Shown here one piece after another: positions 1,039-30,148 of a stretch of DNA of 44,251 bases (position 1 is the first letter of the stretch; the number at the start of each line of letters is the position of its first letter). The notes under the pieces are model-generated. The model was given only the letters and a program-made list of their open reading frames with translations, was not told where the DNA came from and made no database searches. A program made the translations under genes and the position numbers. This DNA is from a virus. The DNA lies in IMG/VR virus record IMGVR_UViG_3300035670_000420, positions 1-44,251 of that record. One strand, 5' to 3'.

Positions 1039-1540
1039 GGAGTATTCCTTTCTGAACTAAACTCTCTTTTAAGGATTTCATTCCCTCTTGAATTTTTATA
1101 TGTGAAACATCTATATTCTTTTCATTCTTATCATTCTTTACATTCTTATCATTCTTGTTTGTTGTTATCCGTTTGTTATCCGTTTGTTGTCCGTTTGTTA
1201 TCCGTTTGTTAACTGGCTTGTTAACGTCTTGATATGTACCATAGTTTTTTATTGTTATTACAGTAAAAAGGTTGTTAGATTGGCTTGTTATCTCGCCTGT
1301 TAATTTTAGCTTGTCTAAAGCAGTTCTTACCTGCATTATTGATAAATCGCCTATTTCTTGGGATAGATGTTCGTAGCTTGTAATGAGTTCTCCACGTTTA
1401 ATTAAATTACCCTGCCACTTCTGATCTGTGTGATTTGCTCTTAATAGGAGGTGTAAGAACACTCTTACTACGTTTGAGTCTTGATACCACTCCCAGTCAA
1501 GTAGTGTTCTATGCAGTTTTATAAATCCATTATTAGGCAT
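1025..1540 (-). CDS. Replication initiator (DnaD / phage O-like, N-terminal winged-helix type)
   Basis: The N-terminus (MPNNGFIKLHRTLLDWEWYQ, then FLHLLLRANH and LSIMQVRTALDKLKLTGEI) matches the winged-helix half of phage replisome organisers, which bind the origin and recruit host replication proteins. I chose the ATG at 1540 because the family starts here. A GTG at 1615 extends the frame but has no ribosome site and crosses a strong hairpin. The AGGAG upstream of 1540 is about 18 bases away, unusually far. The Asn/Lys-rich linker (about residues 110-145) is encoded by tandem DNA repeats that look like an origin. It follows the Rad52-like gene in the operon. Confidence 0.75.
   Translation of the reverse strand: MPNNGFIKLHRTLLDWEWYQDSNVVRVFLHLLLRANHTDQKWQGNLIKRGELITSYEHLSQEIGDLSIMQVRTALDKLKLTGEITSQSNNLFTVITIKNYGTYQDVNKPVNKRITNGQQTDNKRITTNKNDKNVKNDKNEKNIDVSHIKIQEGMKSLKESLVQKGILHEAI
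1112..1226. repeat. Iteron-like repeats, candidate replication origin
   Basis: Four tandem 11-bp units of GTTATCCGTTT (one with GTTGTCC) occupy 1164-1207. Next to them lie two 16-bp copies of CATTCTTATCATTCTT at 1123-1138 and 1141-1156 in an AT-rich tract. At 1208-1225 is GTTAAC-tggctt-GTTAAC. Phage origins commonly lie inside the initiator gene, with helical-turn-spaced iterons next to an AT-rich unwinding tract. This block fits that plan, but the repeats also encode a plausible Asn/Lys linker. Confidence 0.5.
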
Positions 1541-2692: not shown

Positions 2693-2722
2693 AAAAAGAC
2701 TCCGATTGCTCGAAGTCTTTTT
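2693..2722. terminator. Strong bidirectional intrinsic terminator
   Basis: AAAAAGACT (2693-2701) pairs with AGTCTTTTT (2714-2722). Read on the minus strand, the stem continues as GACTTCGA-GCAA-TCGGAGTC with a GNRA-type tetraloop and one G-U pair, about 13 bp in total. T-runs flank both sides. It follows the tRNA 3' end on the minus strand by about 15 bases, like a normal tRNA terminator, so integration may restore both tRNA end and terminator. Confidence 0.8.
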
Positions 2723-2738
2723 TCGTTTATATTCAGCT

Positions 2739-2790
2739 TGGTGGGGAGGGTGGGAGTCGAACCCACATTCGTTCACTCAAGCGACTAAAA
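2739..2790 (-). other. attP: attP core: 3' end of a tRNA gene
   Basis: On the minus strand the sequence gives a complete T-arm (GTGGG-TTCGACT-CCCAC, 2750-2766), the acceptor 3' strand CCTCCCC (2743-2749), discriminator A and an encoded CCA (2739-2741). No GGGGAGG acceptor 5' strand or D-arm exists upstream, so this is not a complete tRNA. A tRNA 3' end beside an integrase gene is the classic attachment core, which regenerates the host tRNA on integration. The upstream limit of identity (I give about 2790) cannot be set without the host tRNA. Confidence 0.75.
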
Positions 2791-2816
2791 AAGAGGTCGA
2801 GTAACCTATTACTTAA

Positions 2817-2850
2817 AGAGTACCAAAAATTACAAGACTTGTCAACAAGT
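2817..2850 (-). promoter_or_regulatory. Leftward promoter with overlapping operator-like inverted repeats
   Basis: On the minus strand TTGACA (2840-2845) is followed after 17 bp by TACTCT (2817-2822), a good -35 and a weak -10. The -35 lies inside ACTTGT-CA-ACAAGT (2837-2850). An adjoining ACAAG-A-CTTGT (2832-2842) overlaps it. These could be repressor operators or integrase arm sites. Transcription would run through attP and the terminator into the HTH gene. Confidence 0.45.
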
Positions 2851-2898
2851 ATTTTCTGCGATATCCTATACTGGTTTTTAACCCGCCCTTACAACAAA

Positions 2899-3852
2899 AT
2901 GTCATTTGAGGATTGGCTGCTTACAAAAGGTAGAACTGCCTCAACCATAAAAAAACACCTAATTCGCTTAGAGGTGTTGGGGAGAGAATTGCATGAATGG
3001 ACTGTTGAATATGTAGAGGGATTTATACTCGAAAAGATTAAGGAAGGATCGAGACACACAACTCTCAACGCGTACATAGATACTATAAGACTATATTCAC
3101 AATACAAAAATTACTCTTATGAGCTTCGCAATTATAAACACTATAAGTCTGAGTATGCAATTAAAGGAACTTTCTCTGATGATGAAATACTACAAATAAT
3201 TACACTACCCTGCCCCACCGGAATGGATAAGGACTCTTGGGATAAATACTCACTGCTTTTTTCTCTTTTAGCCTTCACAGGATGTAGACCACAGGAGATA
3301 TGTACAATTAAGCGTAATCAGATAGATTGGGGAAGAAATGTATTCAGTATAGAACATACTAAAACGGGTGTACCAAGATTTGTACCAATCCCCCCAAACC
3401 TTGTTGATACAATAAAAATATACCTTAATACAATAGATAGTGAATACCTATTCATTACAAGGAAAGGAGAGGTATTGAGCGATAAGAGTTACTATCATAA
3501 CTTCAAAAAGAGAATGGAAATACTAGGTATTGATAGACCCCATATTACCCCCTACTCTTTCAGACATTCCTATGCAACTTCATTGCTAGAGGCTGATGTA
3601 AATATACACAAAATAGCAAAACTTATGGGACACAGCATTACTCAAACATCACACTATGAGCATTTAACTACAAAGGATTTACAAAAAGCAATAATAAGAC
3701 ACCCCTTAATAAGAAGTAACGCCCAACCCGATGATATCATAAAAGATATAAAGGAATATGTTGAGGGTTACGAGTTAGATAAACACGTTAACGTAAAGTA
3801 TACACTTTTGTATACTAACCGGGAACTAACCATAAAAATACGCCCTAATTGA
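2899..3852 (+). CDS. int: Tyrosine recombinase / phage integrase
   Basis: This is the only confident plus-strand gene. Counted from the ATG at 2899 it has 317 residues. The N-terminal part (about 1-85) is a SAM-like core-binding domain. The catalytic set is visible: Arg130 in TGCRPQE, Lys155 in HTKTG, Arg222 in YSFRHSYAT (Tyr in place of the first His of HxxR, as in many relatives), His245 in LMGHS and Tyr253 in HYEHL. It would cut attP and the host tRNA attB. A TTG at 2839 would add 20 residues but lies inside the operator-like repeat. Neither start has a ribosome site. It is divergent from the replication operon. Confidence 0.9.
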   Translation: MSFEDWLLTKGRTASTIKKHLIRLEVLGRELHEWTVEYVEGFILEKIKEGSRHTTLNAYIDTIRLYSQYKNYSYELRNYKHYKSEYAIKGTFSDDEILQIITLPCPTGMDKDSWDKYSLLFSLLAFTGCRPQEICTIKRNQIDWGRNVFSIEHTKTGVPRFVPIPPNLVDTIKIYLNTIDSEYLFITRKGEVLSDKSYYHNFKKRMEILGIDRPHITPYSFRHSYATSLLEADVNIHKIAKLMGHSITQTSHYEHLTTKDLQKAIIRHPLIRSNAQPDDIIKDIKEYVEGYELDKHVNVKYTLLYTNRELTIKIRPN

Positions 3853-6654: not shown

Positions 6655-7584
6655 TCACCCCCTTTTGAAGAATCTGTCAACTATTTCTACAATAAGTTCT
6701 TTAACTGTGTATTTCTCTATTGGGTTTGACGCTGATATCTTGGCGTATAAATCTTTGTTTTCTTTATCCAAACTTTCGACCCTTAGTTGTAATGCTTTAT
6801 TTTGGTTGGATAGTTCTATCTTTTCATTTGAAATGGTAGATACTGTATCTTGTAATTGTGATAGGTCAAAACTTAAAGCACTTATCTTTTTATCTTGTTC
6901 TGCTATATCGGTATTTAGATCGGACACAAGTTCTGACAAAGCTTCTACCTGTTGTCTCAGGGCGCGTGACTCTGATTTATACTTTTCTTTCTCGGCCTCG
7001 TTATAAACGTTCTCACTATAAAGTTTTACCCAGTCGTTTATTAGTTCCTCATACGACCAATACTTATTGTATCTAGCAATTTCTTTTAGCTTGAATTGTT
7101 CCTCTACTTCTGTTCCTATATCTTCTGTTAGACTCATAGAATCTCCTTTCGCAATGGCTATAATTTTATCTACATCTAAAGTTCCGGGACATTGCGTTGC
7201 GGATACTTCGGAATGTTTAATAATATGTTCTCTATCTAAGGGTATGTTGTATCTCTCACACACCTCTCTTAATAATTGTCCTGCTGTCTGATAAGTTTTC
7301 TCTGTGGCATTTTTAATAGTTGTAGCATCGTGTTCTATACCGATACTTCTTTGGTTCATCGGATAGTTTCCTGCGTGCCACGCCACCTCATTTTCTTTTA
7401 CCCACTGATATACCAGAACATCTGAAATACCATAATGAGCAGATACGCGAGCATTCGGGTTAAGAAAACGAGAGTTAGCAGACTCAATATCCCCAATACC
7501 AAACCAATGCAAAACAACCCTATCAATAGTTTTACGATATTCTTGACCATCTTTATTTGGACTTCCTTTCCAAACTATATTCAT
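6655..7584 (-). CDS. Endolysin: N-acetylmuramoyl-L-alanine amidase with coiled-coil tail
   Basis: 309 residues. The N-terminal ~140 residues are an Amidase_2/PGRP domain with zinc ligands His26 (VVLHWF), His124 (IIKHSE) and Cys132 (QCPG). It cleaves the amide bond between muramic acid and the stem peptide. The remaining part (about 180-290) is a long charged coiled coil, unusual for an endolysin and more like a spacer or oligomerisation part. No cell-wall-binding repeat is seen. Its start overlaps the stop of the upstream gene (ATGA), so translation is coupled. Confidence 0.9.
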   Translation of the reverse strand: MNIVWKGSPNKDGQEYRKTIDRVVLHWFGIGDIESANSRFLNPNARVSAHYGISDVLVYQWVKENEVAWHAGNYPMNQRSIGIEHDATTIKNATEKTYQTAGQLLREVCERYNIPLDREHIIKHSEVSATQCPGTLDVDKIIAIAKGDSMSLTEDIGTEVEEQFKLKEIARYNKYWSYEELINDWVKLYSENVYNEAEKEKYKSESRALRQQVEALSELVSDLNTDIAEQDKKISALSFDLSQLQDTVSTISNEKIELSNQNKALQLRVESLDKENKDLYAKISASNPIEKYTVKELIVEIVDRFFKRG

Positions 7585-21021: not shown

Positions 21022-21057
21022 AACTAACAACTAAAAAAACAGGGGTAATTTTACAAA
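21022..21057 (-). promoter_or_regulatory. Late element 3 (TTGTAA-17-TAGTTG)
   Basis: TTGTAA at 21051-21056, a 17-bp spacer with the T-run, TAGTTG at 21028-21033, and the ATG at 21021. It overlaps the stop codon of the sigma gene, so the sigma factor could act immediately downstream of its own gene. Confidence 0.65.
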
Positions 21058-21863
21058 TAAGATATAAGGTGACTCGATGACGGGCTTTTCTTGAGTCTTT
21101 TTAGAGCATCTCTTTCTAACTGTCTTACTCTTTCCCTTGATATACCAATAGCATTGCCAACATCTTCTAAACTTTCTATAGGTTTATTATCCAACCCAAA
21201 CCTTCTAGTTAGGATATAACTACTTCTCTCATCTAACATCTGTACTGCTTCGAGCAAATCCTTTCTTAGTATATTATCTACAGCATCCTCAAATGTCTGT
21301 GCTTCCTCATCTACAACAGTGTCCTCAAACCTAAAATCATCTCCCCATATATCATCAAGGGATAATACATTGTTCATTCTACTGACTACACTTTCAAGAT
21401 ATTCCTCTGACACATCCAAAAGTTCGGATATAGTTTTAATATCGGGCATCTCATCTCCTTTTGAATAGATATCATCTATTAAGCGTCTGTATTTAGTCTG
21501 CAACCTAACCACATTAGGTGGTGTTCTTATTGTCTTTGATTGTTGGGATACATAGGAGGATATAGCCTGTGTAATCCACTGTTCTGCTACAGTTGAAAAC
21601 TTTACTCCCCTACGCCAGTCATATCTTTCACTTGCCTTTATTAAGCCTTCATTACCAGCCTGTATAATATCTGAAAACGGGATGCCATAACCCGCATATC
21701 TTTTGGCAATGGATACTACGAGTCTAAGATTACTCTCTATCAGTCTATCTTTAGATGCCTTATCTCCTTGTTCAATTCCCTTAGCCAATCGTAACTCATC
21801 TTCGGGAGATAGAAGCTCTACATCTGACAAATGATTTAGATATTCGGACAGTATTGAAATCAT
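21051..21863 (-). CDS. Phage-encoded sigma-70-family RNA polymerase sigma factor
   Basis: 270 residues with a nearly full primary-sigma layout: region 1.2 (LSPEDELRLAKGIEQGD), region 2 (NLRLVVSIAKRYAGYGIPFSDIIQAG), region 3 (IKTISELLDVSEEYLESV) and region 4 (LEDVGNAIGISRERVRQLE). It should bind host core polymerase and direct it to phage promoters. Region 4 keeps the -35 contacts (RERVRQ). Region 2.3/2.4 reads FSTVAEQWITQAIS (about 89-102) where bacterial sigma-70 has FSTYATWWIRQAIT, so residues equivalent to Y430 and W433 are changed. It is the last gene of the operon from 30148. Its start overlaps the upstream gene by ATGA and has no ribosome site. Confidence 0.9.
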   Translation of the reverse strand: MISILSEYLNHLSDVELLSPEDELRLAKGIEQGDKASKDRLIESNLRLVVSIAKRYAGYGIPFSDIIQAGNEGLIKASERYDWRRGVKFSTVAEQWITQAISSYVSQQSKTIRTPPNVVRLQTKYRRLIDDIYSKGDEMPDIKTISELLDVSEEYLESVVSRMNNVLSLDDIWGDDFRFEDTVVDEEAQTFEDAVDNILRKDLLEAVQMLDERSSYILTRRFGLDNKPIESLEDVGNAIGISRERVRQLERDALKRLKKSPSSSHLISYL

Positions 21864-22528
21864 AAGTATTTAACGTCATTAACCTCATAACCTTTGTGGA
21901 TTAGGTTGTTTTCTTCCCAATCCTTTACCCTCCCATGTACCTCACTAAAACTCTCATTAGTTTCATCTATAAAAAACTCAAACTTTTTACCTCTGTTCAT
22001 CCTGTCAAACACATTAAACCAATCCATCCCATATCCCTTAAAGTCTAAGTCCTCATCAAAGCCACCTATGTATTTAAGTGCTGATTTCTTCATAGCACAG
22101 TAATTTCCTTCTACTTCGTTGAAATTACAGGCTCTAAAATCGTTTCTAAGGCTTTTTCTTGGGTCAGTCCATACTTTATTACCTAATTCAGGGTACACTT
22201 TATCGTACTTATCACCTACCCCCGAAATGATAAAGTTGGGTTCTCTATAAAGCCAAAATGCAAACTTCTCTAATCCCTCGGGGATACATAGAGTGTGATC
22301 TTGGATAGAAACTATAATATCTCCTTTTGCTTCTTTGATTAACTTGTTGTAAATCCTGTTGAGGCTCCAGTAGCCACCTGTAAAGTCATCCTTAACCCAC
22401 CTACCCATCTTGGGGTCAAAGGGCGAACCAATAAGCCACTCCCAATCCTCATAGGTTTGTCTTTCAAGTGCTTTTCTAACTATTTCAAGACCTTCGGGTC
22501 TTATTGTAGGTGTTATTACTGATATCAT
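21860..22528 (-). CDS. GT2-family glycosyltransferase
   Basis: 222 residues. ISVITPTIRPEGL at the start, an acceptor-side GDIIVSIQDHTL motif in place of a plain DxD, and GGFDEDLDFKGYGMDW as in GT2 enzymes. Soluble. It overlaps both neighbours by four bases, inside the sugar cluster. Confidence 0.8.
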   Translation of the reverse strand: MISVITPTIRPEGLEIVRKALERQTYEDWEWLIGSPFDPKMGRWVKDDFTGGYWSLNRIYNKLIKEAKGDIIVSIQDHTLCIPEGLEKFAFWLYREPNFIISGVGDKYDKVYPELGNKVWTDPRKSLRNDFRACNFNEVEGNYCAMKKSALKYIGGFDEDLDFKGYGMDWFNVFDRMNRGKKFEFFIDETNESFSEVHGRVKDWEENNLIHKGYEVNDVKYL

Positions 22529-23319
22529 AGGTAAGATAACATCTCCAATGCCCTGTGTTTGTATGTATGCTTGGCAAGAATAAGCTCTCGGGCATTCTTA
22601 ATTATTTGCTTTCTTGCTTTTGTATCCTTAGTATATTTCTTTAGGTTCTCCAGAAACTCCTCATCGTTTCTAAAAGGAACATAGTGTATATATGGTGTTG
22701 CAACCTCACAGTAATCTCCTATCGGATACCACAACATACAACCTATCGCCATACTCTCAAAAAATCTCATATTCAGATCTGTAAGTCCGGGTCTGTTTAG
22801 TATTAACTTTCCCTTACTCATTTCCCTAGAGTAGTCGTCTCCATACATATCGTTGTTCTTGTATAGAGTAAAACCATTATCGTGTGCAATATCAAACAAC
22901 CTTTGTCTTTCTTCATACCCATAACAACCACCCCCACCACCCATTAAACCTATATTAACCAAATCGTATTCAGGCTCTCCCATGTTTCTATGTATATCGG
23001 GGTCAGCAGCCATTGGTAGCCACTTAGCACCCTCGGGGTAGTGGTTAAAGTCCTTACCCGCTAAAAACAACACATCGTACTCACCTATTGGTTCTTTGAA
23101 CTGTCTTCTCGTACTATCTACTTCCCAATAAAAGTTCCTATTAGCCTGTTTTCTTGCCATAATAGGGTCAAACCCTATGTATAAATCAAAGTTAATATCA
23201 ATGTGGTGTTCTTTACCTTGTCTTAGCACCCTATGACCTAGTTCTTTCAATGCTTTAGAAAGGTAATACCCCGCCCTATATTCAGTCTTTTCTGTTTGAT
23301 ATTCGATTAAAATATTCAT
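22525..23319 (-). CDS. GT-B glycosyltransferase, CgeB-like
   Basis: 264 residues. AGYYLSKALKELGHRV near the start, then YDLVNIGLMGG and a C-terminal KGKLILNRPGLTDLNMRFFE and FRNDEEFLENLKKY pattern, as in CgeB-like family-1 transferases used for protein or spore glycosylation. The start at 23319 lies within the end of the nucleotidyltransferase gene (38-base overlap). Confidence 0.75.
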   Translation of the reverse strand: MNILIEYQTEKTEYRAGYYLSKALKELGHRVLRQGKEHHIDINFDLYIGFDPIMARKQANRNFYWEVDSTRRQFKEPIGEYDVLFLAGKDFNHYPEGAKWLPMAADPDIHRNMGEPEYDLVNIGLMGGGGGCYGYEERQRLFDIAHDNGFTLYKNNDMYGDDYSREMSKGKLILNRPGLTDLNMRFFESMAIGCMLWYPIGDYCEVATPYIHYVPFRNDEEFLENLKKYTKDTKARKQIIKNARELILAKHTYKHRALEMLSYL

Positions 23320-23959
23320 ACCACCTATCTAAGTCCTTCGGATAATCAAAGTCATCCGTAAAATCATCTATCTCGTAAAAGTTATCTCCCTTAACGTGGT
23401 TTTTAGGGTTAATACCATTCATAATCCTGTAGTGTTGCCAACCACCACAAGTGTCAATTTCCCCACGTCTTTTCATATCCGCAAGTGTATAAAGAGCATC
23501 TTCGTGTCTTTTTATATCTTTAGGATAAAAACTCTGTGCAAAACACTCTCCCCACTCACAACCTGTAAACTGACTTGCACCATATCTTGCAAAGAGTACC
23601 CAATCCTTACCCTTGTATTCCATAATCGTCTTAACTGCCTCATCAGTAAAGTAGCAATCCCCATAAAAGACTATCGTTCTACCATTCTTATTCCATAGTT
23701 TCTTGGATGATAGAAACTTGTCTGCATCAAAGTTATCAGGATTGAGGTCGGCTTCGTAGTAAGTAGAGCCTTTAATCTTGTATCTCTCGTCATTTCCCCT
23801 ACCTACAACATATACCTTAGCCTTACTATATTTGTTTATTAGCCTTACAGTTCTTTCAAGAATCTTTTCACCATTTATCTCAATTAGATGTTTAGGAACA
23901 CCTTTATAGTTCTGCCACCTTGTTGCTTCTCCCGCACATATAATAATTGCTACTGTCAT
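23282..23959 (-). CDS. Sugar nucleotidyltransferase-like protein
   Basis: 225 residues from the ATG at 23959, with GGAG six bases upstream. The start AIIICAGEATRW...VPKHLIEI is the nucleotide-binding signature of the GT-A-like NTP-transferases (MobA/RfbA/IspD type). IVFYGDCYF supplies an acidic metal site. It would make an activated sugar or alditol for the transferases around it. The signature is shorter than in typical enzymes, and the substrate is unknown. Confidence 0.75.
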   Translation of the reverse strand: MTVAIIICAGEATRWQNYKGVPKHLIEINGEKILERTVRLINKYSKAKVYVVGRGNDERYKIKGSTYYEADLNPDNFDADKFLSSKKLWNKNGRTIVFYGDCYFTDEAVKTIMEYKGKDWVLFARYGASQFTGCEWGECFAQSFYPKDIKRHEDALYTLADMKRRGEIDTCGGWQHYRIMNGINPKNHVKGDNFYEIDDFTDDFDYPKDLDRWYEYFNRISNRKD

Positions 23960-24588
23960 ACAAAGCTCCAATCTACACTTGTTGCTAAATATGGTGTTTC
24001 CATATGTGTAGCCAAACTTGGTACAGGTTGTACTAAAGTATATTTATCTGTAATCTCTTTCCACATTGGCTCATCAGCCCAACCATACTTTTTGAAATCA
24101 TCGGTAATAAGTTGTGGGTGTGTGGCAAATGTTAGAGTTGTAGATGGTATTAACTGCCAACCATCTTTTACACTACCAAGTGGGATAATACTTGGGTGGT
24201 GGTAGGGTGATACAAAATCATATATCCTTAGTGCCTTTTCCATTTCCTCACCGGCATTGGGTAGGAAGTAATAATCATCTTCTAAAAAGAACACTTCGTC
24301 ATCTGCTTCCTTGGCTAAATCTATCTGTCTATAAAAACTTGCAAGATTTCCACTATTCCAATCATCTGTCTGTAGTGTTTCGATAGTATGTTCAAAAGGG
24401 ATAGAATCACAAGCATCTGCAAGTTCTACTGTCGGCTTGTCTATAATGAAATGAACAGTGGGGTTAATACTCTTAAATCCCTCTATAAATGAGTTTAGGC
24501 ATAGTTCTATAAGACCCTGTTTGTCTAGTTCCACAGGTCTTATCTTGTTTATACTGTTAATGCTTGTTAATCTGTATAAGACTTTCAT
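23956..24588 (-). CDS. Glycosyltransferase-like protein with EDD motif
   Basis: 210 residues. VFFLEDDYYFLPNAGEEM provides an acidic metal/nucleotide-sugar site. WNSGNLASFYRQIDLAKEAD before it resembles GT-A folds. It overlaps both neighbours by four bases. The precise family is not clear to me. Confidence 0.65.
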   Translation of the reverse strand: MKVLYRLTSINSINKIRPVELDKQGLIELCLNSFIEGFKSINPTVHFIIDKPTVELADACDSIPFEHTIETLQTDDWNSGNLASFYRQIDLAKEADDEVFFLEDDYYFLPNAGEEMEKALRIYDFVSPYHHPSIIPLGSVKDGWQLIPSTTLTFATHPQLITDDFKKYGWADEPMWKEITDKYTLVQPVPSLATHMETPYLATSVDWSFV

Positions 24589-25133
24589 GCACCAAATGTG
24601 GCGTTAGCTCCCCACTTTTCATAATACTTAATACGATTCCTCTCTCTAATATCGTTTATTCCTGCAATCTTACTTAAAGTGGTAGCACCTATTGGTGGGT
24701 GGTTAAAGTTAACAAATGGGATACTTAACTTATCAAATTCTTTGGATTCTACATTCCTCCAAAAGTCCCAATCATCGTAGTACGCTTGTTCATAGGTCTC
24801 GTCATATCCACCTGTGGCTTCATAGATATATCGAGGAACACAGAATACATGGGCGTGGAAGGGTATCTCCTGTCCGTTGATTAGTGGACAAGTAATAAAC
24901 CCGGGAACACATAATTCGTTTAGATCACCCGATTCCCACACAGCATCATCGTTTACAATCATAATAAAATCCCCATGAGTTATCTTAAAACCCATATTGA
25001 TTTTCTCACCAAGAGAACTCTGTTTTGAAGATATAATAAGTAGTTCATCTACCTTATCTTTAAGGGAATTAAAGCACTCAAATAACTTAGGTTCATCGGG
25101 GTTGTAGTTTGTTATTACAGCAGATAGTTTCAT
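24585..25133 (-). CDS. GT2-family glycosyltransferase
   Basis: 182 residues. KLSAVITNYNPDEPKLFECF at the start, DFIMIVNDDAVW as the acidic site and GGYDETYEQAYYDDWDFW on the acceptor side, as in rhamnosyl-type GT2 enzymes. Coupled to the upstream zinc-ribbon gene by overlap. Confidence 0.8.
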   Translation of the reverse strand: MKLSAVITNYNPDEPKLFECFNSLKDKVDELLIISSKQSSLGEKINMGFKITHGDFIMIVNDDAVWESGDLNELCVPGFITCPLINGQEIPFHAHVFCVPRYIYEATGGYDETYEQAYYDDWDFWRNVESKEFDKLSIPFVNFNHPPIGATTLSKIAGINDIRERNRIKYYEKWGANATFGA

Positions 25134-25300
25134 AGGTGTGGGGCATATGGCCCGTTGGAAGTAATAACTTTAATAGCAGTACCCTTTATATCCACATCAC
25201 TTCCACAATAAGGACATTTAGGTTTATCTTCAGTATTAACCTGAACCATATGGTGACATTTATTACACCAAGCGTTATACACTTTATATTCTTCATACAT
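25130..25300 (-). CDS. Small zinc-ribbon protein (56 aa)
   Basis: This gene starts at 25300 after AAGGAGAATAACAA. It has two Cys pairs, CNKC (12-15) and CPYC (29-32), the spacing of a zinc ribbon, and ends with NGPYAPHL. It overlaps both neighbours by a few bases within the sugar cluster. A binding or scaffold role is possible, but nothing specific can be said. Confidence 0.75.
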   Translation of the reverse strand: MYEEYKVYNAWCNKCHHMVQVNTEDKPKCPYCGSDVDIKGTAIKVITSNGPYAPHL

Positions 25301-25724
25301 TTGTTATTCTCCTTTTAATCTCAGATGTACTAATACCCTCGGTATATGGTACATAAACAAGGGTTATACCATTGCTATCAAGCCATTCCTGTGTAAACTG
25401 CATCTGTGTGTAGTAGTCTTTCTTAGCCCAATCACTACCAACAACAATAAAATCAGGCATAACTTCAAGTATTGCGGGCTTACTATCAGCACCACCTGTG
25501 TTTTCTATAACATCGTCAACCATCCAATATGCAAGTAATATTTCTTCCCTCTCGGAATAGGACATAATAGGTGGTTTACCCTTAAATTGTTCTATAAACT
25601 CATCGGTGTTGAGGGATACTATTACTTCCCCATCATCACCAGCTATTTTTCTACAGGCTTCTAAGAACCTAACATGGCCTTTGTGCGGTAGGTCATAGGA
25701 GCCACCTGTGTAAACTATAGGCAT
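25293..25724 (-). CDS. Glycerol-3-phosphate/sugar cytidylyltransferase (TagD-like)
   Basis: 143 residues. The HxGH motif is at HKGH (14-17) in YTGGSYDLPHKGHVRFL, and the C-terminal ISTSEIKRRI (about 130-139) is the second conserved motif. The family makes CDP-glycerol or related CDP-alditols. It suggests that glycerol- or alditol-phosphate groups are used in the surface or fibre modification. AAAGGATTGTGAA precedes the ATG. Confidence 0.85.
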   Translation of the reverse strand: MPIVYTGGSYDLPHKGHVRFLEACRKIAGDDGEVIVSLNTDEFIEQFKGKPPIMSYSEREEILLAYWMVDDVIENTGGADSKPAILEVMPDFIVVGSDWAKKDYYTQMQFTQEWLDSNGITLVYVPYTEGISTSEIKRRITNV

Positions 25725-26536
25725 TTCACAATCCTTTCAGCTAACTTAATATGGTCAAACTTGCCTACAATAAAGTCTTTTCGTAGGTCTATCTCACTAT
25801 TATTAAAACTAAAAACCATTTGCAAATAGGCTTGTCCTATTTCATCTTCGGGACATTTCCACAAGCCCTGTAGTTCTAAAGATGTTGTTAGTACAGGGGT
25901 ATTGCAGGATAATGCTTCTAGGGCAACCTCATTATCATTGGTAACAACCCCCTGTGCCTGACTATAGACAAGTGGTGTTCTTGTTGATGTAGCAACCAAA
26001 TGATTGCTTTGTACTACCTCCTCAAACTGCTCACTTCCCGATATTAAAGCAAGTGAGCCGGGTGGTAGTTGTTTCACGTTTGCTATAGGCATCGTAAACA
26101 AGGCGGGGTACACTCTGTTTGCTTGTATAGGTCTGAAATAGTCGGTGTCTGTTGCGTAATACTCTATATGAGTGCTAAAGTCCCCTAAACCTTGAGTATT
26201 CAACCCTAAACGATAAATACTATCCTCTGATGGCAAATAGTCTTGCTCTATGACATCATCCCACCCTCTCTTGGTTTCCCCGTAACCTATAACATATCTT
26301 GGGCTAAATCCTCTAAGCCAATACTTCATAGATGAAGCATTATCAAATAGTTGTATTGCAAACTTATCCTTACTGATAAATGCTGGTACATCACTATACC
26401 CGAATACCTTAATGTTGTATTTGTTAGCAAGTATTCTTAATGCACCAAATAAACCGTCATTAAGTAGATACCACCTATCAAGTGGCTTTTGTGATGGTAT
26501 TAAAACTGCTAGTTTTGTTTTATTTCTTTGATTCAT
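25715..26536 (-). CDS. GT-B-like glycosyltransferase
   Basis: 273 residues. The N-terminal half is Rossmann-like (KLAVLIPSQKPLDRWYLLND, IKVFGYSDVPAF). The C-terminal half has GVVTNDNEVALEALSCNTPV, the typical donor-binding end of GT4-like enzymes, in which a conserved Glu precedes EALSC. Divergent. AAGGAGATT precedes the ATG. Confidence 0.65.
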   Translation of the reverse strand: MNQRNKTKLAVLIPSQKPLDRWYLLNDGLFGALRILANKYNIKVFGYSDVPAFISKDKFAIQLFDNASSMKYWLRGFSPRYVIGYGETKRGWDDVIEQDYLPSEDSIYRLGLNTQGLGDFSTHIEYYATDTDYFRPIQANRVYPALFTMPIANVKQLPPGSLALISGSEQFEEVVQSNHLVATSTRTPLVYSQAQGVVTNDNEVALEALSCNTPVLTTSLELQGLWKCPEDEIGQAYLQMVFSFNNSEIDLRKDFIVGKFDHIKLAERIVKCL

Positions 26537-27483
26537 AATCTCCTTGCAACTTCATAAACTACATTAACCGTAACTGCATTTCCTAAACATTTATACCTTT
26601 GAGTGTCCGACACCCCCTCAGTCCACCCATCAGGGAATCCTTGTAGGCGTTCACACTCGGTTGGGGTTAATCGTCTGATTCGCATACCATCGGTATATGA
26701 TGTCCTCCTGATGGTGTTGGTATCGTTGGGCTTATCCCTTCCTTCTTGTGTATTCGGCTCGTCTGTCCGAATGTAACTGCCTCTGTGTTTATCACCTGTT
26801 TGTAAGGTGTGTGCAATGTAGTTCCCTTGTGCATCCGGTTGAATATACTCTGTGTTGCTTTCTGTGATAGGAAATACTTTTGGTCTGGGTTCTCCTCTAA
26901 GATGTCCGACAATGAACACTCTTTCCCTATTCTGGGGAACTCCGAAATCTTTGCTGTTAAGCACTTGCCATTGGAGGTCATACCCCAGTTCTGTAAGCGT
27001 GGCGATGATGGTTTTGAAAGTGAATCCGTTGTCATGAGATAACAATCCTTTAACATTTTCAAGGATGAAATATCTCGGCTTCTTATCTTTAAGTATTCTT
27101 GCGATTTCAAAGAAAAGAGTTCCCCTTGTGTCATCAAATCCTCTGCGTTTTCCAGCAATGCTAAAAGCTTGGCAAGGGAATCCTCCGACCAAGAGGTCGT
27201 GGTCTGGGATTTCACTTGTGGGGACTGTTGTGATGTCCCTTGTATCAACTCTATTGCCTGTTGGTTCACTGTATCCAGTGCGTATGCTGTCTGATCTACC
27301 TTTGTCAGATGCCCTGTTCCCCCCTTCCCCGTCTTGCTTGACCTCGGATATAGACTGTGAGTTTTTATTGTATATTTCTGCTGCATATTTATCCCATTCG
27401 TTAGCATAGACACACTTGTGTCCGAGTCTGTTTAGTGCTAAATCAAATCCTCCAATTCCTGCAAAGAGTGATACATATTTCAT
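26533..27483 (-). CDS. dcm-like: DNA cytosine-5 methyltransferase
   Basis: 316 residues with motif I (FAGIGGFDLAL, 7-17), motif IV PCQ (103-105) in GGFPCQAFSIAG, motif VI ENV (142-144), QNRERVFIVG (motif VIII) and a C-terminal LGNAVTVNVV. It adds a methyl group to cytosine C5, probably for protection from host restriction. The target-recognition region is short. A polar insert (about 46-82) separates motifs I-II from PCQ. It lies alone among sugar genes, overlapping both by four bases. A long second frame runs through it. Confidence 0.9.
   Translation of the reverse strand: MKYVSLFAGIGGFDLALNRLGHKCVYANEWDKYAAEIYNKNSQSISEVKQDGEGGNRASDKGRSDSIRTGYSEPTGNRVDTRDITTVPTSEIPDHDLLVGGFPCQAFSIAGKRRGFDDTRGTLFFEIARILKDKKPRYFILENVKGLLSHDNGFTFKTIIATLTELGYDLQWQVLNSKDFGVPQNRERVFIVGHLRGEPRPKVFPITESNTEYIQPDAQGNYIAHTLQTGDKHRGSYIRTDEPNTQEGRDKPNDTNTIRRTSYTDGMRIRRLTPTECERLQGFPDGWTEGVSDTQRYKCLGNAVTVNVVYEVARRL
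26667..27413 (-). CDS. Overlapping ORF in alternative frame of the methyltransferase
   Basis: A 248-codon frame, shifted by one base inside the methyltransferase gene, is free of stops. It contains CSLSDILEENPDQKYFLSQK, which is read from the same DNA as VFIVGHLRGEPRPKVFPIT. I recall similar CSLSDILE...YFLS segments in predicted proteins of other phages, always over such methyltransferase genes, but cannot check it here. No ribosome site is evident at its ATG. It may be a by-product of conserved DNA. Confidence 0.25.
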   Translation of the reverse strand: MSMLTNGINMQQKYTIKTHSLYPRSSKTGKGGTGHLTKVDQTAYALDTVNQQAIELIQGTSQQSPQVKSQTTTSWSEDSLAKLLALLENAEDLMTQGELFSLKSQEYLKIRSRDISSLKMLKDCYLMTTDSLSKPSSPRLQNWGMTSNGKCLTAKISEFPRIGKECSLSDILEENPDQKYFLSQKATQSIFNRMHKGTTLHTPYKQVINTEAVTFGQTSRIHKKEGISPTIPTPSGGHHIPMVCESDD

Positions 27484-28049
27484 TCAAATTCTTTACTCCA
27501 AACCTTTGCTACCTCTGACCAATCACAAGACTTGGCAAATTCAATACCCTTTATCTGTTCCCCATGCCATCTTGTTGTATCTTTCATCAAAGCTATCAAC
27601 TCCTCTTTGTATTTCTCTCTGACTTTAGGATCGTAGATATCACCCTGAACTTTTACACCTGATTGAACAGTTTCACTTAGTGCCGCCTTTTCTATTACAC
27701 AGGGAACACAACCATCTAACTGACATTCTAGGGCGGTAATACAATGGATTTCATCAAAGTGTGTACTATAAGCCCATATACCACATTTCTGTCTAATCTC
27801 TTTTAATTCATCTTTCCCAACTCTCCCATGATGTGTAATTCCGGGAGCTTTCATCATATCGTTTATCTTCTCTTTCCATGCCTGTCTTTCAGCATTATCG
27901 TGGTACGCTTTATCAAATAAATCCCACCCATAGCAAATGTGTAATTCTGCTTCGGGTACTTCTTCCTTTACCTGTGGCCATATCTTTAATAAATGCTGTA
28001 AACCTCTATCGTAAGATGACCCCCAGAAGCACGTTGTTTGTTTAGACAT
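27480..28049 (-). CDS. C-terminal half of a split GT-B glycosyltransferase
   Basis: 189 residues corresponding to only the second Rossmann domain of GT4: SSYDRGLQHLLKIWPQV, AELHICYGW, APGITHHGRVGKDEL and ECQLDGCVPCVIEKAALSE. The matching N-terminal domain ends the 608-aa protein encoded upstream, and an 86-aa gene lies between. The two halves may assemble, or this half may be inactive alone. AAAGGG precedes the ATG. Confidence 0.75.
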   Translation of the reverse strand: MSKQTTCFWGSSYDRGLQHLLKIWPQVKEEVPEAELHICYGWDLFDKAYHDNAERQAWKEKINDMMKAPGITHHGRVGKDELKEIRQKCGIWAYSTHFDEIHCITALECQLDGCVPCVIEKAALSETVQSGVKVQGDIYDPKVREKYKEELIALMKDTTRWHGEQIKGIEFAKSCDWSEVAKVWSKEFE

Positions 28050-28064
28050 AACTTTTACCCTTTC

Positions 28065-28325
28065 TTAATTTTTAACGCCTGAAATTGACAATTTACTCTC
28101 AAACAGGTAGTCCTCGGGGTTTTTTTGAGAGTGTCTGGTAAGATAAGATAAAATTTCTCTCTTACCATTTATGTAGTCATCTTTAGGCACTAATTTATTA
28201 AATGCTCTGTAAATTGCTTCCTTTTTGAGGCCCTTTTTCTCTATTGCCATTGAAAAGCAAACATAATCACTGTAAACAGGGTTTTCTTCCCTGACTTTCT
28301 CATACAATGCTCTTATAGATCTCAT
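28065..28325 (-). CDS. Small protein inserted between two halves of a glycosyltransferase
   Basis: 86 residues, helical, with KKEAIYRAFNKLVPKDDYI. No nuclease motif is visible. Its ATG overlaps the stop of the 608-aa gene (ATGA), and it ends 15 bases before the C-half gene. The position suggests an insertion that split the transferase. I do not recognise the family. Confidence 0.65.
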   Translation of the reverse strand: MRSIRALYEKVREENPVYSDYVCFSMAIEKKGLKKEAIYRAFNKLVPKDDYINGKREILSYLTRHSQKNPEDYLFESKLSISGVKN

Positions 28326-30148
28326 ATTCTTATCCCATTCCCGACTATTACGAATTTGTCATCCGGGATGTCGGGTAAATTACTACGATGGTATTTAGAC
28401 TTAACAAATATCTTCCCTAGACTTTCCCATCTCTCTTTAGACCAATCAAAGGGAGAGGCAATGTCGTGTAAGTCCATTATGATTTTCTTAGCCTTTAGTT
28501 TCTTGTCTAAAAGATGTGGGGAACGCCATAGAATAAGGATGTTAAACTCATCATTCCAATTTATCATGTAGTAAGGCTTGAATATGACCCCACCATGTTC
28601 TCCAGCTTGTGAACCACAGTCACAATAAACTGTTACTTGGTATCCCATCTTTGCCCACTCTCTTGTTAGTTCTAGTACAGCAGTTTCACTACCACCTATT
28701 CCTGTTTTAAGGTTTTCGGGTCCCCATTCCTCAAAGTGTTTACCACCAAAGGATGCAATATAGGCAATTTCTTTCTTACCCCACTTCTTAGGAGGTAAAA
28801 CATTGTTGGCTATAAATGCGGCATAGGGTTGTTCTACAAGTTCTTGTGGCAATACTTCTAATATATCTGTGATAGTTGGGATATACCCACTATCTTTTAG
28901 CCATTTTGAAAGGTTAAACACGTTCATAGCGGCATCATTTAGGAGTTTTGAGTACATCACATTGCCATATAATCCGTCATCTTTACCCATAAGATTTGCT
29001 CTTATACCCGCCCATTCAACCATTTCTTTTATGTTTTGCTCTCTAAATGCCTTTTGATACATCAAAGTAGCGGCTAAAAGTTTAATTTCATAGGTATTAC
29101 CGATAGTTGAGTTATTCTTAGGTATCTCTAACTGCATACCTAAACTTAACCAATGGTTAGAAAACTCTAAGTTTCCTACCTTTTTATAGGCATCTGCAAG
29201 TCTAAGATAAGGTAAGATGTGTAGGGGATACTCAATAACAGCATTGTGGTAGGTTTCTACTGCCTTTAGGTTGTCATTTTGCTTTTGATATATTAAACCT
29301 GTGTATTCCCAAGAGTTTGCTCTCTCTGCATCCCATCCTGACTGCTCTCTGTATTCTTCAAGTAGGGTTAGTGCTTCCTTTAATGATTCGGGAGTGTTAA
29401 GGTCAAATAGAGTTTTGGCAAGATAAAACTTAGTTCTTGGGTCTTTACCCTGTTCTTCCTCTATCTGTAGTTTTAGTATTAAAGCATTTCTCTCTATAGT
29501 TTGAGATGTCCTTTGTTCGGTTGTTAAATGAATCCATGTGCATAGTTGATTCTTCTGTGGATCAAAGGGATAGTATGTTTGCTTAGGCTTAAAATTGTTA
29601 TCTTTAGGTACACATACCTCATGAAGTCTTGATACCCACTTAAACTTGTTAGGCTTTAGTAGTCTTTCCCTCATATGTTCTATAAGTATCTGTTCTACCT
29701 CGCCTTGTTCGTTTAGTCTTACTGCATAGAGATAGTTAAACATTACAGAGTCATACTTTTTTTCTCTTGCTATTATTGCTGTCTTTTGTAGTTCCTCACC
29801 TGATGCAAGTACATCATCCACATCCGCCCATGTTAGGTAGTCATATTCCTCATCTACCATACCAAAGGATACGTTTCTTGCTTCCGCAAAATGGGTGAAT
29901 ATCCACTTATCATTTACCTTGGAGTAAATCTGTGGGTGAGTTTCGGGATTTGTGGAGATAGACTTACCTTTATACTTTTTAACTATCTCATGAATCTTTT
30001 TATGTTCTCCCGATGTACCTGTTACTGCTACATACAGTCCTTGAACATACGGGGTGAAAGAATCTAAACATCTATCAAAAATATCTGCTTCGCTGTCATC
30101 TTTAACAATCATGCAGAGGGCAATTCTTATAGGTTTTACTTTGGGCAT
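28322..30148 (-). CDS. GT2 - TPR - GT-B N-half fusion
   Basis: 608 residues. Residues 1-240 are a GT2-like domain (RIALCMIVKDD, WADVDDVL acidic site). Residues about 245-360 hold TPR-like helices (KFYLAKTLFDL, AVETYHNAVIEYP, LRLADAYKKVG). Residues about 460-608 are a GT-B N-terminal domain (GIGGSETAVLELTREWAKMG, ending FVIVGNGIRI) that stops where the second domain should begin. The TPR part may hold an acceptor protein, as in O-GlcNAc-type enzymes. There is no ribosome site: CCTGACC precedes the ATG. It is the first gene of the sugar/sigma operon. Confidence 0.8.
   Translation of the reverse strand: MPKVKPIRIALCMIVKDDSEADIFDRCLDSFTPYVQGLYVAVTGTSGEHKKIHEIVKKYKGKSISTNPETHPQIYSKVNDKWIFTHFAEARNVSFGMVDEEYDYLTWADVDDVLASGEELQKTAIIAREKKYDSVMFNYLYAVRLNEQGEVEQILIEHMRERLLKPNKFKWVSRLHEVCVPKDNNFKPKQTYYPFDPQKNQLCTWIHLTTEQRTSQTIERNALILKLQIEEEQGKDPRTKFYLAKTLFDLNTPESLKEALTLLEEYREQSGWDAERANSWEYTGLIYQKQNDNLKAVETYHNAVIEYPLHILPYLRLADAYKKVGNLEFSNHWLSLGMQLEIPKNNSTIGNTYEIKLLAATLMYQKAFREQNIKEMVEWAGIRANLMGKDDGLYGNVMYSKLLNDAAMNVFNLSKWLKDSGYIPTITDILEVLPQELVEQPYAAFIANNVLPPKKWGKKEIAYIASFGGKHFEEWGPENLKTGIGGSETAVLELTREWAKMGYQVTVYCDCGSQAGEHGGVIFKPYYMINWNDEFNILILWRSPHLLDKKLKAKKIIMDLHDIASPFDWSKERWESLGKIFVKSKYHRSNLPDIPDDKFVIVGNGIRI

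Follow-up and report, generated by a model that had tools for sequence, protein, structure and literature searches.

Known systems in which integration alters gene expression

The nearest described systems, in the parts of the literature covered here, are Tn916, through its Porf7, canT and T1 elements, and ICEKp1. Tn916, a conjugative element, has a promoter at one end, Porf7, which the excised circle alone connects to the operon for DNA processing, replication and conjugation; at the opposite end is a terminator, T1, which insulates the element from host transcription, and beside the promoter is an RNA antiterminator, canT, which is processive and acts on foreign terminators too (PMC11658703). 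ICEKp1 has a tRNA target, at which the host tRNA promoter reads into the element and stem-loops attenuate that transcription; a 3'-end promoter is used in the excised form, the int promoter is switched according to state, and a 15-bp stretch spanning att may, in its authors' suggestion, pair with one of the stem-loops and so relieve the attenuation (PMC13023037). In mycobacteriophage BPs the attP site is internal to the repressor gene, and the repressor becomes shorter on integration (PMC4557955). Tyrosine integrases and host tRNA targets are also found in tRNA-dependent lysogeny, where the phage carries its own tRNA copy without rebuilding the tRNA (PMC10865867). Among the titles and abstract openings listed in searches of the open-access literature, which leaves out most subscription papers, there was no phage with a promoter-operon pair or an attenuator split by attP.

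Here we describe a locus in a virus record of 44,251 bases (the window, i.e. the whole stretch of DNA analysed) that resembles Tn916 in having a promoter and an operon on opposite sides of a core (here a presumed one) and a predicted terminator at the operon end, and that may have a counterpart of the Tn916 antiterminator in an RNA arm on the promoter side. It differs in that Tn916 is a conjugative element with a processive canT, whereas the present locus belongs to a phage with a presumed tRNA site, and its arm is complementary to a single terminator. The ICEKp1 switch controls the integrase gene and favours re-integration, whereas here it is a replication operon that would be controlled, and the integrase runs the other way. 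The initial annotation had drawn a parallel with mycobacteriophages, which holds insofar as attP placement in BPs makes integration itself alter phage gene control; in BPs, however, that site falls within the repressor gene, whereas no repressor was found in the window and it is the link between promoter and operon that would be cut, so that Tn916 and ICEKp1 are nearer. Unlike the phages of tRNA-dependent lysogeny as described there, the window carries a tRNA 3' end through CCA and no phage tRNA gene that we could find. We propose, with a probability of about 0.38, that the replication operon is under an excision-coupled switch in which promoter separation and an RNA switch act together, probably a phage form of excision-coupled expression.

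Gene content of the window and its replication operon

The window encodes terminase, portal and major head proteins, no conjugation families were found by Pfam among 38 of its proteins, and it is a tailed phage, not a Tn916-like conjugative element. We read the contig as the unintegrated form because the integrase and the early operon are contiguous on it, and, as a terminal repeat was not found in the window, a circular form is assumed. The right end of the contig (44127-44251) consists of about 21 copies of the hexamer ACCACG, at which the assembly probably broke. Elsewhere in the window, a sigma-70-like factor with regions 1.2, 2, 3 and 4 is encoded at 21051-21863 (minus strand), immediately ahead of a series of glycosyltransferase and nucleotidyltransferase genes, and the interval 21860-30148 holds adjoining glycosyltransferases, a cytidylyltransferase and a C5 cytosine DNA methylase, several of these matches being weak.

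The replication operon is on the minus strand. Its first gene (2483-2692) encodes a 69-residue helix-turn-helix (HTH) protein (HTH_23, 21.1 bits, below the cut-off of 24.6) and is taken to start at the ATG at 2692-2690; its frame stays open upstream to a GTG at 2776, inside the leader. A 60-residue ORF for which no family was found (2273-2455), a Rad52-like annealing protein (1662-2273; PF04098, E 1.4e-14) and a replication initiator-like protein (1025-1615; Phage_rep_org_N, E 0.0013, below cut-off, start codon uncertain) follow on the same strand. Within the initiator-like gene, at 1162-1211, are four and a half copies of an 11-bp repeat, TTGTTATCCGT, possibly origin iterons, which also lie behind some of the matches to the replication genes of other phages. 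Divergent from the operon is a tyrosine integrase (2899-3852, plus strand; PF00589, E 2.1e-27), whose start at ATG 2899 was chosen by alignment with a related phage, L004, the frame also having an upstream TTG at 2839. A possible integrase promoter, TTGTCA-17-TATCCT (2839-2867, plus strand), comes from a consensus scan only and overlaps the operon promoter described below.

None of the 38 different window proteins scanned with Pfam was CI- or LexA-like; nine more were scanned with PHROGs only, and the remaining small ORFs lay outside the repressor scan. Within this coverage no other means of maintaining lysogeny came to light, although a repressor of unrecognised type may be present, and the HTH protein could be one.

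The presumed attachment core

Between the integrase and the operon, the minus strand at 2739-2768 can be read directly as the 3' end of a tRNA, comprising the T arm, the acceptor strand and CCA, and no complete tRNA was found in the window. Rfam reports only the T arm in the leader region; a tmRNA was considered as the target and set aside, the match being to that arm alone at 15.1 bits (cut-off 47). The position of a tyrosine integrase next to a tRNA end is a trait of tRNA-targeting temperate phages, and 30 bases (ATGTGGG...CCACCA) are identical and in the same place in the window and L004, with differing flanks. On the strength of the adjoining integrase and this shared identity, we take the tRNA end as the presumed attP core. 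The core is intergenic provided that the HTH gene starts at ATG 2692; a start at GTG 2776 would make the gene span it. The initial annotation had placed attP between a promoter and the operon, a geometry borne out for the presumed core.

Among viral contigs, the core 27-mer occurs, besides the window, in L004 and L005 only, and the L005 copy falls inside a complete tRNA-Tyr; the integration target may be tRNA-Tyr. L005 is a 121-kb viral contig, possibly from the same host as the window, with seven tRNA genes in 2.5 kb (438-2887).

A predicted promoter facing the operon across the presumed core

On the integrase side of the core, and facing the replication operon, the minus strand carries TTGACA-17-TACTCT with an extended -10 TG (2817-2845; -35 at 2845-2840, -10 at 2822-2817), where the initial annotation had placed a TTGACA promoter, and the order from promoter through tRNA 3' end and terminator to the HTH, Rad52-like and initiator genes is also as it was given there. 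The -10 matches the consensus at three of six positions, and for that reason the site is absent from a standard consensus scan, which gave no minus-strand site at all between 1 and 3416. Including the TG brings its score to 10 out of a possible 13, a value reached by 1.5% of 1000 dinucleotide shuffles of the same 130-base stretch. Taken alone the window promoter is thus marginal, and the case for it depends on the relatives. A second promoter immediately upstream of 2692, which had been named as evidence that would speak against the arrangement, is absent: between the -10 and the HTH ATG no other site scores at least 8.

In five of the seven distinct phages examined, the early operon is faced, from the integrase's side of the presumed core, by a sigma-70-like promoter (the window, L004, L044, L080 and L113, but not L037 and L114; L045 nearly duplicates L044, and L115, whose match figures equal those of L114, is taken as a copy of it). 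Five further integrase relatives (L002, L003, L010, L116 and L117) stand outside this count. In L004 the promoter is TTGACA-16-TATAAT with TG (score 13, reached in 0 of 1000 shuffles), in L044 TTGACA-18-TATAAT (score 12, shuffle frequency 0.001), in L113 TTGACT-17-TATTAT (score 10, 0.023) and in L080 TTGACA-17-TAATCT (score 9, 0.182, alone not significant). No stronger site precedes the first ATG in any of the five; the best other site between promoter and first ATG scores 9 in L004, 9 in L044 and 8 in L113, and in the window and L080 none reaches 8. The stretch from core to ATG is 22 nt in L080 and 13 nt in L113 as set here, too short for a promoter.

The presumed cores of all five phages are deduced from sequence alone, and the early operon of L080 and L113 is judged from its position. 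The L044 core (1181-1210) consists of two inverted 11-base arms separated by 8 bases, and that of L080 is a nested inverted repeat. The L080 leader from promoter to first ATG (7335-7412) forms one long hairpin around the presumed core, with a z of -4.93 and no U run. In L113 the core reads as a tRNA 5' half whose direction is opposite to that of the operon (an Rfam tRNA match of 15.9 bits, below the cut-off of 29, with E 0.96); the presumed site, at 3741-3780, seems to carry this half up to the anticodon and not the usual 3' half. L113 also encodes a 245-residue protein that we take to resemble the ERF annealing protein. Of the two phages in which the layout is absent, L037 has a distant integrase and a tRNA-like stretch 3' of int that is seen by eye (ARAGORN lists none there), and in L114 the genes are co-directional with int. 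The recurrence of the layout across different presumed attachment sequences favours a selected arrangement.

These comparisons bear on whether the site is simply an ordinary attP, in which the terminator takes over from the tRNA gene's own once the phage has integrated, the promoter match arises by chance or has some other use, and operon transcription starts from an unrecognised promoter of its own or depends on a phage-specific sigma factor. Such an explanation would fit a window promoter that lies under the scan threshold and an L080 promoter that is not significant by itself, and, since the phage has its own sigma-70-like factor, its operon promoters might not resemble sigma-70 sites; near-perfect promoters at the corresponding position in L004 and L044, and the absence from all five phages of any stronger site closer to the operon, nevertheless make it unlikely. 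We think it quite probable that integration detaches the operon from its promoter, i.e. the promoter-separation half of the proposed switch.

The wider searches for host, lysogens and relatives returned little. A genome scan with a two-member integrase alignment gave one distant contig of a Lachnospiraceae MAG (27% identity), and the core 28-mer was found in 0 of 299 genomes of the phylum of that MAG, which need not be the phylum of the host. Among the matches listed, cultured phages have integrases 22-32% identical and terminases 31-35% identical. The metallophosphatase next to int, used as bait, gave six loci, one of them in L004's own record, and the integrase profile had no match in the DNA of the other five. 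Four of 50 records of terminase relatives have a related integrase, two of these records being near-identical, and 37 further such records gave none (0 of 37). The other 46 of the 50 (records behind L030-L105) are without an integrase of this kind, many of them being fragments; the phage group may be mostly non-temperate or have other integrases. In L106, a 77-base tRNA-Ser(GCT)-like gene lies 3' of an integrase (1146-1222, minus strand); it lacks the long variable arm that a tRNA-Ser would be expected to have.

A terminator-like hairpin at the start codon

Between the core and the first gene, an intrinsic-terminator hairpin with 13-base arms, a 4-base loop and a U run (2693-2722, minus strand) touches the start codon, its last base directly preceding the HTH ATG, and its 3' arm contains GGAG 7 nt before the AUG. 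Hairpins so placed are rare: under a widened rule, 8 of 1163 ORFs from 31 loci have a terminator-like hairpin no more than 8 nt from the ATG, the first genes of the window and of L004 being among the eight. The first rule, which required a T run beyond the stem, had found 2 of 774 ORFs in 18 loci, with window, L004 and L044 not among them, and was widened knowingly after that result; L044 is still missed because of an A-C mismatch in its stem. The hairpin at the ATG is present in the window, L004 and L044, whose integrases are 42% (L004) and 39% (L044) identical to that of the window and whose terminator 5' arms are similar, and is absent in L080 and L113.

Because integration at the 3' end of a tRNA gene puts the operon behind the host tRNA promoter, the operon would then need insulation, and the predicted terminator would supply it against host tRNA transcription. 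L113, in which the tRNA piece is oriented opposite to the operon and a terminator is not apparent, fits this insulator logic. The circular phage needs a way past the terminator, and pairing of the leader across the core may provide one.

Complementarity and folding of the leader RNA

Upstream of the core, the leader contains a presumed antiterminator arm (2784-2804, minus strand) that has oligo-U and is complementary to the 5' arm of the terminator; a repeat search aligned 2804-2784 with 2726-2706, i.e. the terminator 5' arm and its flank, at 81% complementarity over 21 nt with the core between them. All three phages with a terminator at the ATG show this complementarity between the terminator 5' arm and leader sequence preceding the core. 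Against shuffled leaders, the energy of the arm-terminator duplex stands at a frequency of 0.072 in the window, 0 of 2000 in L004 and 0.0025 in L044; against windows of the same record outside att the counts are 118/17598, 25/5086 and 10/8396, and against AT-matched windows 66/10262, 2/1820 and 0/2200, in the same order. The complementarity is beyond chance in L004 and L044 and less firm in the window, where it is marginal against shuffles. Three independent leaders are too few for covariation.

The leader folds of lowest energy in L004 and L044 are antiterminators, and that of the window is a very stable fold (z -4.83) of terminator form. Before the terminator 3' arm exists, the antiterminator is the minimum-energy fold in all three. 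When the upstream part alone is shuffled, such a truncated-leader fold is reached in 3/1000 cases for the window, 0/1000 for L004 and 177/1000 for L044 (cut at 1264). The L044 result varies with the cut (157, 87, 15, 2 and 11 of 500 at ends 1262, 1264, 1266, 1268 and 1270) because its pairing includes the terminator loop. At the end of the U run, terminator pairs stand at 0.46 with the arm against 1.00 without it in L004, 0.01 against 0.99 in L044, and 1.00 either way in the window; five bases later, through the AUG, the values are 0.43 against 1.00, 0.68 against 0.85, and again 1.00 either way, so that the effect of the arm in L044 is small once these bases are out. As the window leader at equilibrium takes the terminator form with or without the arm, its antiterminator could act only during RNA synthesis, before the terminator is complete. 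Folding thus supports an antiterminator best in L004, partially and with mixed results in L044, and only kinetically in the window.

Two other candidates from the leaders were rejected. A GGAG or AGG is located 5-10 nt before the AUG, within the terminator 3' arm (motifs of this type precede 13 of 34 window genes tested under our own rule), and freeing of this ribosome-binding site by the antiterminator is unsupported at equilibrium, the motif being unpaired at 0.00 in the window, 0.14 in L004 and 0.09 in L044. Rfam matches in the L044 leader were all under their cut-offs and are taken as chance.

The same results can be read as promoter separation without an RNA switch, the terminator serving as insulator, phage transcription being allowed by a leaky terminator or an antitermination factor, and the leader complementarity being incidental or serving DNA binding by the integrase. 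We regard this as a possible explanation, at clearly less than even odds. The layout holds in L080 and L113, both of which are without the terminator at the ATG, the window leader keeps its terminator form whatever the arm, and the Tn916 terminator is passed by a processive cis-acting RNA and not by local pairing (PMC11658703); against this stand the beyond-chance complementarity and the minimum-energy antiterminator folds of L004 and L044. The idea that promoter and terminator delimit a short non-coding transcript, about 120 nt in length, and that the HTH gene is expressed through leakage alone would suit the very stable terminator-form fold of the window leader, but we hold it to be very improbable, given a terminator that abuts the first gene's ATG, no stronger operon promoter in sight, leaders in L004 and L044 whose minimum-energy form is the antiterminator, and nothing in Rfam here except the T arm. 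The RNA half of the proposed switch, in which antiterminator pairing across the presumed attP would be lost on integration, remains tentative, a little short of an even chance.

A proposed excision-coupled switch and its implications

Under the proposed switch, with both halves acting, the promoter at 2845-2817 in the circular phage would fire leftward across the attP core, and in the emerging leader the arm at 2804-2784 would pair with the terminator 5' arm across the tRNA-like core, letting RNA polymerase pass so that the HTH, Rad52-like and initiator proteins could be made. On integration at the 3' end of a host tRNA gene, promoter and arm would stay at the integrase end of the prophage, facing host DNA, and the operon would sit behind the host tRNA, whose transcripts would meet the terminator without the arm and stop. 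Judging from this geometry, the operon is likely silenced on integration; replication would be off in the prophage without need for a dedicated repressor, and excision would bring back the linkage of promoter, arm and operon at once.

A stronger reading, which we consider doubtful, is that a temperate phage lineage keeps lysogeny without a repressor by means of an RNA attenuator split by attP, the nascent RNA itself directly sensing circle versus prophage. If the proposal is true, the principle of Tn916 and ICEKp1 would extend to tailed phages, applied there to replication genes, and the signature of promoter, arm, core and terminator at the ATG could be used to look for more such phages. The state of the DNA would be sensed by RNA folding across the attachment site, and the choice between lysis and lysogeny would be set by recombination itself and not by a repressor.
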